Shown here piece after piece: positions 28,656 to 32,445 of a stretch of 32,727 nucleotides of DNA. Below the pieces are notes generated by a model. The model had not been told where the DNA came from. It saw only the letters and a program-made list of their open reading frames with translations, and did not search any database. The position numbers and the translations under genes were made by a program. How positions within the stretch are numbered: the first letter of the stretch is position 1; every line of letters begins with the position of its first letter. Source of the stretch: SAR202 cluster bacterium AC-647-P02_OGT_505m (GTDB taxonomy: Bacteria > Chloroflexota > Dehalococcoidia > Lucifugimonadales > UBA826); the NCBI GenBank assembly GCA_009391195.1, contig VEXB01000012.1, forward strand, positions 1-32,727, in the 5' to 3' direction.

Positions 28656-29432
28656 TTACAAATAATCCTTGGCCCAACTCAGGCCTTCCTCTGTATTTCC
28701 TGCAGGAATATATTCACATCCAATCCAGCCGTCGTAACCCAATTTGTCAATAAAAGAAAAAAGGAATGGATAATTTATTTCTCCAGTTCCAGGTTCATGC
28801 CTTCCAGGATTGTCAGCAAGTTGCATATGACTGATTAAAGATAGATTAGATTCAATAGTCCTTGAAAGATCTCCTTCCATTATTTGCATGTGATAGAGAT
28901 CATGTTGTAAAGATAGATTAGGAGAATTCACATCCTGGATTATTTCCTTGGCCTGATCTGTATGGGTTAAGAAAAATCCCGGTATATCTATAGTGTTGAT
29001 ACTTTCAATAATTAATTTGACTCCGGCGCTTTCCAGAATCGGTGAAGCAAACTGCAAATTAGATATGAATGTATCTCTCGCATTTTCAACACTTACGTTA
29101 TCTGGCTTAACTCCGGCCAAACAATTAACCTGAGGACAATGTAGGGCGGTTGCATATTCCACCGCTACACCTACACTGTCTTGAAACTCCCCCACCCTAG
29201 CAGGGTCACAAGCTATTCCTCTATCCCCCGAATCCCAATCACCTGCAGGAAGATTATGCAGAACCTGAGAAAGATCATTTTCAGCGAGTAAATTCACTAA
29301 TTGATCTTGTTTATAGTCGTAGGGGAAAAGGTATTCCACCCCTTTAAATCCAGTTCTCCGAGCAGCTTCGAACCTATCCAAAAAATCGTATTCATTAAAC
29401 ATCATACTTAAATTTGCAGCTAGCTTAACCAT
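28656..29432 (-). CDS. hyi: Hydroxypyruvate isomerase Hyi (or 2-oxo-tetronate isomerase)
   Basis: 258 residues, a TIM-barrel xylose-isomerase-like enzyme. Very close to the Hyi family: 'NLSMMFNEYDFLDRFEAARR', 'GFKGVEYLFPYDY' and 'LHNLPAGDWDSGDRGIA'. Catalytic glutamates are Glu143 ('IIESINT') and Glu240 ('GCEYIP'), at the positions known for this family. It interconverts hydroxypyruvate and tartronate semialdehyde, or acts on 2-oxo-tetronates. ATG with AGGGAG upstream. First gene of the run hyi-E1-dehydroquinase-like, divergent from ssrA. Confidence 0.92.
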   Translation of the reverse strand: MVKLAANLSMMFNEYDFLDRFEAARRTGFKGVEYLFPYDYKQDQLVNLLAENDLSQVLHNLPAGDWDSGDRGIACDPARVGEFQDSVGVAVEYATALHCPQVNCLAGVKPDNVSVENARDTFISNLQFASPILESAGVKLIIESINTIDIPGFFLTHTDQAKEIIQDVNSPNLSLQHDLYHMQIMEGDLSRTIESNLSLISHMQLADNPGRHEPGTGEINYPFLFSFIDKLGYDGWIGCEYIPAGNTEEGLSWAKDYL

Positions 29433-29566: not shown

Positions 29567-29916
29567 GGGGACGCGTGGATTCGACAGGGGGTGTCACCGC
29601 GGAATTGCAGGTCGGGGCGCCTTCTACCTCGTTAAAAAGTGGGCAAAAAAGTTAACTGGCAATAAAGAGCTAGCACTAGCCGCTTAAGCGGCTACGTCCT
29701 TCATGACCGATCCCCGAAGGATATGAAAGGGCGCCAATAGACGGGGTGCAGCCAGTCAGACGCCGATAACACTGGCTAAAGATAATCGGCTAGTAGGGCC
29801 CAAGCGTCAGCCGATCGGGGCTGGGCCTTTCGAATATTAAGACCGGCTAAACCTGTAGCATATTCCGATCGGGGTGTCTTCTGGACGGGGAGTTCGACCC
29901 TCCCCCGTCTCCACCA
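29567..29916 (+). ncRNA. ssrA: Transfer-messenger RNA (tmRNA)
   Basis: About 350 nt. The 5' end GGGGACG with 'GTGGATTCGACAGGG' and the 3' end with T-arm GAGTTCGACCCTC, CGTCTCC and ACCA form the tRNA-Ala-like domain; the acceptor stem has one G:U pair. The resume codon GGC (29658) starts a tag reading GNKELALAA before TAA at 29685-29687; the ALAA end is the usual ClpXP degron. Pseudoknot-forming GC-rich segments follow. It rescues stalled ribosomes with SmpB, which is not in the window. Its 3' end is duplicated imperfectly at 31479-31508. Confidence 0.96.
29887..29916 (+). repeat. ssrA 3' end, candidate attL
   Basis: The last 30 bases of ssrA, partner of the degenerate copy at 31479-31508 (23 of 30 identical, including a 9-base run CCCGTCTCC and a final CCA). 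tRNA and tmRNA 3' ends are common integration sites, and the site is kept intact by integration. Confidence 0.55.
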
Positions 29917-29927
29917 AGAATACGATT

Positions 29928-29963
29928 CAGACGCCCAGCCTCAAGATGAGCCTGCGGCGTCTG
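29928..29963 (+). terminator. Strong hairpin after ssrA
   Basis: CAGACGCC (29928-29935) pairs with GGCGTCTG (29956-29963), and the inner bases continue the stem (CAG/CTG and CTCA/TGAG around an AGA loop) with one mismatch and one bulge. It begins 11 bases after ssrA. There is no T run, so it may be a weak terminator or a processing structure. Confidence 0.45.
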
Positions 29964-30067
29964 GTGTATTAGCGCAATTTCACTGCCCTCGCTGGTGGTG
30001 GCTATCTCAAAGAGTGGCCATCCGGCCCAATATGTGACAACCTGTTACAAGTAGGAGGTCCCGTAGC

Positions 30068-31321
30068 ATGAACATCAAGTTGCGTCGACATACGAAACCC
30101 CGCGTCACAGCTGCTGAAATGTACCAAGTGCAAGAATCGTACGTCCGTTTCAATCAAAAAGATCATATGGGCTCGCAGATGGTGTGGGATGCCCAACTCA
30201 AGGCTGAACGAGACAAACTAAAAGTCAAGCAACGAAAGCTTACGGAAAAGGGACGCCCCGGTTTCGAGGCTACTGCGTGGGGCCTTGATGCAGCGGCAGA
30301 CTCCTTGCTATATCTTATGGACTTTTCAAAGAATCAGGGGGACGCTCCGGCTACTGCATGGCAATCTAAGATGGAACCCGCGCCGACAGGCCGACCGAAG
30401 ACTTCCCCTAAAGAGGCCTCCCAGATTGTGCGTAAGGCCGCTCATTTGTTCGGAGCGGATCAAGTTGGATTTGCCGAACTGGACCGCCGCTGGGTGTACT
30501 CCCATTACTTCGATTCGGAGACAAAAAAGGATCACCCAATCAAGTTCTCGGATGAACCCGGTTACGAACAGTACGACCAACCCATTTGCCTTGAAGATGG
30601 GACACGGGTGATCCCGAAGGAGATGACCAACGTCGTGGTGTTGCTCCACGAATGGGGTAAGGATGTGGAGGGTACTGATTATGCACCGACCCTACTCACT
30701 GAGGGTCTCAGCACTCTGGCATATGCTCGAATGGCGCCGACCCTGTGGATGCTGACTGAGTTCATACGAGGACTGGGGTACAATGCCATCCCCGCGGCCA
30801 ATGACACAGCCTTAAGCATCCCTCTGGCCGTCGATGCAGGCCTCGGTCAGCTAGGAAGACATGGACTGTTAATCAACCCTAAGGTGGGATCACGCTGCCG
30901 TATTTCCAAGATATTTACCGACCTTCCACTTGAGGCCTTAGGCGCAGTGGACTCGGGCATTACTGAATTCTGCAACGCGTGTTTGAAATGTGTCCCGAAG
31001 TGCGGTACGGAAGCGATCACAACAGGCAACCGTGGTTTTGAGGCTTTGGGCGAGAGCAATGCGTCGGGAGTATTAAGCTGGAAGGTAGATGCTAAGAAGT
31101 GCATGACCTTCCAAATCCGTGTCGGGACTACCTGTAGTACCTGCGTCCGCAGGTGCGCATGGACCAAGCCGCCGCGGAGAAGATACGCTATACCTCGCTT
31201 CTTTATAAGGAATTTTCGGTGGCGATGGTTGAACAAATCATGGGTGTGGCTCGACGATAGGTTGGGACATGGAAAGTTTGACAAGCAGGCTGATGACTTT
31301 TGGGGCGTGAGTGGGAATTGA
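30068..31321 (+). CDS. Reductive-dehalogenase-like (RdhA-family) protein, no Tat signal
   Basis: 417 residues. RdhA-family markers: N-terminal 'VRFNQKDHMGSQMVWD', the corrinoid-domain segment 'LGQLGRHGLLINP' with 'IFTDLPLEALG', and two Fe-S sites: Cys302, 305, 308, 312 (CxxCxxCxxxC) and Cys345, 356, 359, 363. There is no twin-arginine signal or membrane anchor, and no rdhB neighbour, so it is probably cytoplasmic and not respiratory. Reductive dehalogenases remove halogens with cobalamin, but family members with other substrates exist. AGGAGG lies 9 bases before the ATG. It is flanked by ssrA and a partial ssrA copy. Epoxyqueuosine reductase is the nearest alternative. Confidence 0.85.
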   Translation: MNIKLRRHTKPRVTAAEMYQVQESYVRFNQKDHMGSQMVWDAQLKAERDKLKVKQRKLTEKGRPGFEATAWGLDAAADSLLYLMDFSKNQGDAPATAWQSKMEPAPTGRPKTSPKEASQIVRKAAHLFGADQVGFAELDRRWVYSHYFDSETKKDHPIKFSDEPGYEQYDQPICLEDGTRVIPKEMTNVVVLLHEWGKDVEGTDYAPTLLTEGLSTLAYARMAPTLWMLTEFIRGLGYNAIPAANDTALSIPLAVDAGLGQLGRHGLLINPKVGSRCRISKIFTDLPLEALGAVDSGITEFCNACLKCVPKCGTEAITTGNRGFEALGESNASGVLSWKVDAKKCMTFQIRVGTTCSTCVRRCAWTKPPRRRYAIPRFFIRNFRWRWLNKSWVWLDDRLGHGKFDKQADDFWGVSGN

Positions 31322-31440
31322 GGTCTGAAGACCATCTAATTCGTTCGGTCTAGGAGCCGACTTAACGACTGCATTACAAGGGACAGCAGTGCTAATTCCT
31401 AGTGGCGAAAACCGGATTCTTTATCCAACCAATCACCACC

Positions 31441-31470
31441 AGTGCCGCTAGATCCAGTACCGCTAGATCG
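31441..31470 (+). repeat. 15-bp tandem duplication
   Basis: AGTGCCGCTAGATCC (31441-31455) and AGTACCGCTAGATCG (31456-31470) match at 13 of 15 positions. It sits 9 bases before the degenerate ssrA copy. Confidence 0.75.
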
Positions 31471-31478
31471 TATCTCAG

Positions 31479-31508
31479 GCCGAGTTTAACTCTCACCCGT
31501 CTCCGCCA
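31479..31508 (+). repeat. Degenerate copy of ssrA 3' end, candidate attR
   Basis: Matches 29887-29916 at 23 of 30 positions with no gaps. It keeps the GAGTT of the T-arm start, the CTC partner, CCCGTCTCC and the final CCA. The T-loop and discriminator have changed, so it is not a functional tmRNA end. It lies between the RdhA-like gene and the aldolase gene. Confidence 0.5.
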
Positions 31509-31559: not shown

Positions 31560-32309
31560 TCAAGAAAGTTTTTTCAAAAATGATGCAGCACCAGATCCAA
31601 GCCATGGAGCCCATGGAATTCCCACAAACTTGACCCCTTTACTGAGATAGGAATCAAGGGTCGCGTCGTTAACTAACGCTCCTGCAATCTTGCCCGATTG
31701 AACAATTGTGTTGATGGCACGATCGACTGCGGCCTGAACATCAGGGTGTGAAGTCTGTCCCGTCAATCCCATGCTCTGGGCCAAATCTCCCGGAGCTACA
31801 TAGAAAACATCAATGTGATCAACAGTCACAATTTCCTCTAAATTCTCAATCGCGACAATATCCTCAATGAGGACTGTAACCAATGTTTCCCGGTTAGCTG
31901 CCTGGATATAATTATCAACGCCATAGCTTTGGCGTCCGCTCGCAGCTCCCCTATGACCGATTGGTCCGAATTTTGAGGCATCCACTACAGCTCGTGCTTC
32001 CGCAGCAGTGTTCACGTGAGGAACCATAATACCTTGAGCACCAAGATCGAAAGTGCGGTAAATAATGCCTGGAGAGTTGGAATTGACCCTAACAATTGAA
32101 GTCATTCCCCAAAGATCGCACGCCCTACTGAGGTTGCCGACTTGAGCGAAGTCTACTGGCCCATGTTCACCCTCAATAAATATCGAATCAAATCCATATT
32201 GACCTAAATAATCGATCATCTCGGGTGAGTTATGTTCACCCATTAACATGGTTACAGCCTCACCTCGTTCCAATTTGCGTTTTACCCTGTTCTCACGCAT
32301 TTTCATCAT
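31560..32309 (-). CDS. HpcH/HpaI aldolase family protein
   Basis: 249 residues from the ATG at 32309 (a GGAG lies 9 bases upstream; GTG at 32312 and ATG at 32306 are alternatives; the frame extends back to 32381 without support). A class II TIM-barrel aldolase: 'FIEGEHGPVDF' (catalytic His/Glu area), 'SIVRVNSNSPG' with Arg, 'GIMVPHVNTAAEAR', metal-ligand Glu in 'VLIED' and Asp in 'VAPGDLAQSMG'. The family cleaves 2-keto-3-deoxy or 4-hydroxy-2-oxo acids to pyruvate plus an aldehyde. It is a plausible partner for the acid-sugar dehydratase at 15213, though far from it. Confidence 0.9.
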   Translation of the reverse strand: MMKMRENRVKRKLERGEAVTMLMGEHNSPEMIDYLGQYGFDSIFIEGEHGPVDFAQVGNLSRACDLWGMTSIVRVNSNSPGIIYRTFDLGAQGIMVPHVNTAAEARAVVDASKFGPIGHRGAASGRQSYGVDNYIQAANRETLVTVLIEDIVAIENLEEIVTVDHIDVFYVAPGDLAQSMGLTGQTSHPDVQAAVDRAINTIVQSGKIAGALVNDATLDSYLSKGVKFVGIPWAPWLGSGAASFLKKLS

Positions 32310-32445
32310 CACTTGTATCTCCATCTCCAAATTTTTCCAATAAATCTGGGTGAGTGTAGGAGGGGAGGTAGAACAAGTCAATGATGCGAAATTTGAGGTC
32401 CTTCATTGAAAAAAGTGTCAGCTAATCGACGCGACATTACTCTAC

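Follow-up and report, generated by a model that had tools for sequence, protein, structure and literature searches.

A reductive dehalogenase gene bounded by tmRNA-tail repeats in a SAR202 bacterium: a possible single-gene insertion unit at tRNA and tmRNA 3' ends

Introduction

Reductive dehalogenase genes (rdhA) in islands at the tails of ssrA (the tmRNA gene) and of tRNA genes have been known before from the organohalide-respiring Dehalococcoides and Dehalogenimonas, where recombinase modules accompany them. Dehalococcoides genomes hold 31 ssrA islands with 47 rdhA genes, marked by 20-bp tail repeats and carrying a serine-recombinase module in 16 cases (PMC3146451), while the site of bvcAB in Dehalococcoides BAV1 is tRNA-Arg and its repeat measures 58 bp (PMC2764846), and the dcpA islands of Dehalogenimonas are located at ssrA (PMC13390414). 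Marine bacteria harbor tycheposons, which are 4-200 kb long, encode a tyrosine recombinase and cargo genes, and have tRNA-Met among their targets (PMC10872708).

The locus described here lies in a 32,727-nt stretch of SAR202 cluster bacterium AC-647-P02_OGT_505m, contig VEXB01000012.1, hereafter the window. It resembles the Dehalococcoides ssrA islands (vcrABC and others; PMC3146451, PMC2764846) in its rdhA cargo, its apparent ssrA target, its tail repeat at the far end, and its class, Dehalococcoidia. Those islands are larger (vcr, about 12 kb), their serine-recombinase module (DsiB, in 16 of 31) lies by the left boundary, and their rdhAB operon is of the Tat type, whereas the window unit consists of one soluble-type gene, the Dehalococcoides-type serine-recombinase module is absent from it, and close copies of its gene are found at several tRNA targets. 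The bvcAB and dcpA islands likewise combine a tRNA or tmRNA tail, a reductive dehalogenase gene beside it, and a direct repeat that comes from the tail or flanks the island, but they hold integrase or recombinase genes and many others, which the window unit does not. With tycheposons the locus shares the tRNA-end setting in oceanic plankton, the presence of cargo genes and tRNA-Met as a target, but the window unit is about 1.6 kb long and has no internal tyrosine recombinase. In the available portions of the open-licence literature on SAR202 and reductive dehalogenases, no mention was found of an rdhA gene beside the tail of ssrA or of a tRNA gene in SAR202.

The repeat that bounds the gene

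The putative landing site, ssrA, occupies positions 29567-29916 on the forward strand (ARAGORN; RF00023, 161 bits) and encodes the tag GNKELALAA according to ARAGORN. Its conserved left neighbor is a hyi-like gene for hydroxypyruvate isomerase on the reverse strand (28656-29432; TIGR03234 above cut-off), and the right flank of the locus is an HpcH/HpaI aldolase-family gene, also on the reverse strand (31560-32381; PF03328). A strong, terminator-like hairpin without a T run follows ssrA directly (29919-29970, forward strand; -27 kcal/mol, z -5.0).

The initial annotation had described a second, degenerate copy of the last 30 nt of ssrA, and this was reproduced. The proximal copy (29887-29916), which is the functional ssrA 3' end, and the distal copy (31479-31508), both on the forward strand, are identical at 23 of 30 ungapped positions, including CCCGTCTCC and the terminal CCA; their 27-nt core (29890-29916 and 31482-31508) is 81% identical, a repeat search of the region returned no longer direct repeat, and the second-best match to the tail anywhere in the window reaches 18/30. 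In dinucleotide-preserving shuffles a score of 23 was reached in 0/1000 versions of the 1.7-kb region (mean maximum 16.2) and in 0/100 versions of the whole window (mean maximum 18.05). A chance origin is rejected on these results, and the repeat is confirmed as real.

An incomplete metagenome-assembled genome could also produce such a structure by chance or faulty assembly, and the state of this assembly (57 contigs, 55.7% complete), as well as a GC content of rdhA unlike that of the contig, would agree with this. We consider that explanation extremely improbable, given the shuffles and the fact that the longest exact run between the two copies is 9 nt, too short to mislead an assembler, which makes an assembly-graph artefact unlikely; moreover, in a congener this gene stands beside another tRNA gene, and a single-contig chromosome, described below, shows the same layout.

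Between ssrA and the end of the distal copy lies a unit of about 1.6 kb (29917-31508), whose sole credible gene is the forward-strand open reading frame 30068-31321, in agreement with the earlier view that an rdhA-family gene stands alone between the repeats. It is preceded by a leader of about 50 nt with a ribosome-binding site (..AATATGTGACAACCTGTTACAAGTAGGAGGT..; 30020-30067, forward strand), similar across 12 loci, and is followed by a 157-nt spacer (31322-31478). This leader, TATGTGACAA..GTTACC..GTAGGAGGT (within 30000-30067, and at the same position in the 11 other loci), is alike between families and moves with rdhA, and it may serve as a promoter or regulator site. Immediately inside the distal repeat, at 31439-31468, the window carries a 15-nt tandem duplication (CCAGTGCCGCTAGAT / CCAGTACCGCTAGAT), where the aligned sequences of NORP26 and UBA2158 have a 15-nt gap.

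A soluble-type reductive dehalogenase

The gene is complete and encodes a 417-amino-acid protein that scores 169.6 bits against TIGR02486, the NCBIfam reductive dehalogenase model (cut-off 160.35), and matches PF13486 above its cut-off. Alignment shows that it keeps equivalents of Tyr246, Asn272 and Arg305 of PceA, which we take to be reductive dehalogenase active-site positions, as well as both 4Fe-4S motifs. The alignment with Sulfurospirillum PceA (PDB 4uqu) extends over residues 50-403 with an E value of 4e-49; the catalytic core, the two iron-sulphur motifs and the Tyr/Asn/Arg positions are common to both proteins. QueG (epoxyqueuosine reductase) was considered as an alternative identity and rejected, at 45.2 bits against a curated cut-off of 200.

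Unlike PceA, the window protein has neither of the two marks of respiratory-type reductive dehalogenases, a Tat signal peptide and an adjacent rdhB membrane-anchor gene: inspection of its N-terminus (MNIKLRRHTKPRVTAAEMYQ) revealed no hydrophobic segment and no Tat signal, which bears out the earlier description of a Tat-less RdhA, and no rdhB was found in the region around the gene. Comparison with the congeneric copy gave a dN/dS of 0.05; the protein is therefore under strong purifying selection. A dehalogenating function of the predicted RdhA is inferred.

Distribution and horizontal acquisition

When carriers are defined by a near full-length match with E <= 1e-200, rdhA is present in 18 of the 250 genomes of the order, the window's own genome included, with the other copies at 78-95% amino acid identity. 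The distribution is patchy across the order, and within the window's family the congener TB06 (G001) is the only other carrier; the relatives that have names are SAR202 or Dehalococcoidia metagenome genomes. Outside the order, the best match in an even sample of 393 genomes of the class has 49% identity. Carriage by phages or plasmids was rejected: a search of IMG/VR returned no relative, and the plasmid and phage records gave only matches below 60% identity, about 33% or less among the matches listed.

PurL was used as a vertical marker. The window PurL is 89% identical to that of TB06, 58-59% to those of G235 (NORP26) and G240, 61% to that of G084 and 64-65% to those of G045, G057, G182 and G183, and the corresponding rdhA identities are 95%, 89-90%, 81% and 81-83%. 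At the DNA level the window gene is 96.0% identical to that of NORP26, which belongs to another family, versus 90.6% to that of the congener (Ns ignored). The comparison of gene tree and lineage proposed in the initial annotation revealed incongruence with the families: the window and TB06 copies are nested inside those of another family (f41/g96), and the copy of G045 (f31) lies inside f6/g11. The window and TB06 copies are still sisters, so that the trees fit either a single acquisition followed by relocation or two separate ones.

The GC content of the window rdhA is 52.9%, versus 39.6-46.8% for the other window genes examined and 44% for the contig; in G084 it is 54.7% in a locus of 59.8%. 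Upstream of the start, homology between copies mostly reaches no further than about 110 bp, or 124-212 bp for a few closely related pairs, and on the 3' side it mostly stops at the stop codon or close to it. Two groups depart from this: the copies of genus g81, which occupy a common locus, and those of the window, NORP26 and UBA2158, in which homology continues 121-202 nt beyond the stop. Horizontal acquisition of rdhA is shown by these comparisons.

Some relatives of the gene are damaged: that of UBA2158 (L057) is truncated and has frame breaks, and those of G234 (G234:C35) and G244 (G244:C50) contain in-frame stops. In genus g81, short palindromic repeats of the GTTCCCGCGAAGGCGGGAAC type occur near rdhA, in the flanks of L056, L079, L080 and L081.

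The ssrA locus in relatives

The hyi-ssrA pair is kept without rdhA in the window's family, where a hyi-like homologue of 70-72% amino acid identity adjoins ssrA in G002, G003, G007 and G014. In seven relatives, of which 7-20 kb downstream of ssrA was searched, no second tail copy was found, and the aldolase flank is next to ssrA in 0/15 family genomes; the contig of TB06 ends inside ssrA. Because the family shows no conservation downstream of ssrA, the native continuation of the distal copy in the window is unrecognisable. The proposed insertion of rdhA at the window ssrA is supported by this synteny, as it is by the patchiness of rdhA, its identity to the NORP26 gene and its foreign GC content. 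Neither outcome that the initial annotation had named as refuting its proposal was obtained: shuffles do not give 23/30, and the relatives neither have rdhA at ssrA nor show a gene tree that matches the families.

NORP26 and UBA2158 share with the window both the spacer and the tail-like sequence that follows it. The distal copy reads TTTAACTCT, the window's own ssrA tail TTCGACCCT, and the ssrA tail of genus g96 TTCGACTCT or, in NORP26, TTCAACTCT; counted by eye, the distal copy matches the NORP26 tail at 25/30 positions and its own at 23/30, a small difference. This suggests that the distal tail copy may have come along with the rdhA unit.

Other tRNA and tmRNA landing sites

Besides the window, three contexts are informative. 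One is in G084 (OX638324), a complete chromosome in a single 2.47 Mb contig, where tRNA-Met is followed after 134 nt by rdhA and then by a copy of its own tail that matches at 30/31 positions. The sequence beyond this distal copy (AGCTTGACAAAATCAAGAACCTTCACGCTGAGG) resembles that directly after the intact tRNA-Met in G029, of the same genus, and in G020, and by this comparison the tRNA-Met genes of both genomes are shown to be empty sites. A survey of 8-20 kb downstream of the tRNA and tmRNA tails of G084 revealed no further tail repeat of at least 20/26, except at neighboring tRNA genes.

In the congener TB06, the 3' end of tRNA-Val points towards rdhA and is separated from the end of that gene by 112 bp; here rdhA and the tRNA are oriented differently to each other than at the other sites. 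A 23/30 repeat (0/5000 shuffles) brackets the gene and covers only the last few nt of tRNA-Val, and around the tRNA-Arg/tRNA-Val genes the family synteny is present on the tRNA side and absent on the rdhA side. An MFS transporter gene beside rdhA at this site (L032 5655-7049) has 90% DNA identity to a gene of the window's genome (G000:C11; L122 9586-10854); the homology covers the gene only, with different neighbors on both sides, and this gene is possibly another single-gene relocation.

NORP26 has, 0.55 kb upstream of rdhA, a 21-nt ssrA-tail fragment with a terminator-like hairpin after it, and a tail-like, partly N-masked copy 0.16 kb downstream, while its intact ssrA lies on a separate contig. 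Between the upstream fragment and rdhA there is an inverted ssrA-like fragment (L048 7508-7555), as if several insertions had occurred at one site.

Known ssrA islands carry rdhA together with integration modules, the module being left in 16 of 31 only (PMC3146451), and the window gene might accordingly be the cargo of an integrase-bearing ssrA island from which all else was later deleted. The wear of the distal copy in the window (23/30) and the occurrence of tRNA-adjacent tyrosine recombinases in the order speak for this main rival for the window. It agrees poorly with G084, whose 30/31 repeat encloses rdhA alone, so that age does not explain the minimal state, and with the several independent sites that have the same bare gene, where homology stops close to the ends of the gene; on balance we regard a decayed island as unlikely. 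The initial annotation had proposed a decayed or minimal insertion; in view of G084, there is no need to assume that a large island has decayed, as the unit may have been minimal from the start.

Three of 15 rdhA contexts lie within 200 bp of a tRNA or tmRNA 3' end, for which P is about 2e-5 with random positions and 0.017 when intergenic positions alone are counted (intergenic share assumed to be 10% of the genome). About eleven of the 15 contexts lack both a neighboring tRNA and a clear flanking repeat; among these other loci no flanking repeat was found at p < 0.01, that of G057, without a tRNA, being set aside at p = 0.0199, and isolated T-arm remnants near other copies were absent, the sole exception being in G197, at a complete tRNA-Ser that lies 1.1 kb away from rdhA. 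With most contexts away from tRNAs and the modest P of adjacency alone, ordinary transfer could be considered, in which homologous or illegitimate recombination brought the gene into the tolerant surroundings of tRNAs and the repeats arose from unrelated events. This is improbable to our minds, since in three cases the tail of the abutting RNA gene bounds rdhA on both sides, and the rdhA of G084 is the only such structure in that genome.

An intact ssrA adjoins rdhA in the window only, among about 15 contexts, and near-identical copies stand at the tails of tRNA-Met and tRNA-Val elsewhere. The suggestion that ssrA is a phylum-wide entry point for rdhA goes beyond what is shown, and 'tRNA/tmRNA 3' ends' is a more accurate name for the landing site.

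Proposed mechanism and implications

No recombinase is located inside the tail-bounded units of the window, tRNA-Met or tRNA-Val, in agreement for the window with the earlier remark that no recombinase was visible in the insertion, and PF00589 has no match in the window's 55.7%-complete assembly. PF00589 tyrosine recombinases lie just beyond tRNA 3' ends (within about 1 kb) in about half of 18 cases in G235 and in 3/6 in G084. Since the units have no recombinase, while tyrosine recombinases adjoin other tRNA tails in the order, an enzyme acting in trans is favored.

The preferred reading is that a horizontally acquired single-gene unit of about 1.5-1.6 kb, comprising the leader and rdhA, would have been inserted at the ssrA 3' end. 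The functional ssrA would have retained one tail copy, and a displaced or donor-derived copy (31479-31508), decayed since, would mark the far end. The same gene would have been inserted likewise at the tRNA-Met tail in OX638324 and the tRNA-Val tail in TB06, by site-specific recombination with a putative recombinase supplied in trans. Repeated insertion of this unit at tRNA and tmRNA ends, with the enzyme probably provided in trans, is the account that we consider reasonably likely. The more general proposal, that rdhA spreads between marine SAR202-type bacteria in single-gene units of about 1.5 kb which lack a recombinase, attach at tRNA and tmRNA 3' ends and are moved in trans by resident tRNA-targeting recombinases, is put forward tentatively, as one that may well prove wrong. 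A single enzyme acting by a single route cannot account for all copies, because the orientation switches and about eleven contexts are not at tRNAs; for the latter reason, tRNA and tmRNA tails are not the only route of rdhA. Other points against the preferred reading are that no excised form of the unit was seen, that the window's incomplete genome gave no PF00589 match, that the distal copy is worn with an unrecognisable continuation, and that adjacency to tails alone has a modest P.

What is new relative to the organohalide-respiring genera is that the same targeting is found in oceanic SAR202-type bacteria, that the rdhA concerned is bare and of the soluble type, and that several tRNA genes are involved, with repeats of their tails and, for tRNA-Met, empty sites. 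The unit is far smaller than the rdhA islands described at ssrA and tRNA genes (PMC3146451, PMC2764846, PMC13390414). If such units are mobilised in trans, searches led by integrases would miss these insertions, and minimal cassettes can carry catabolic genes between bacterial families with no recombinase left behind.
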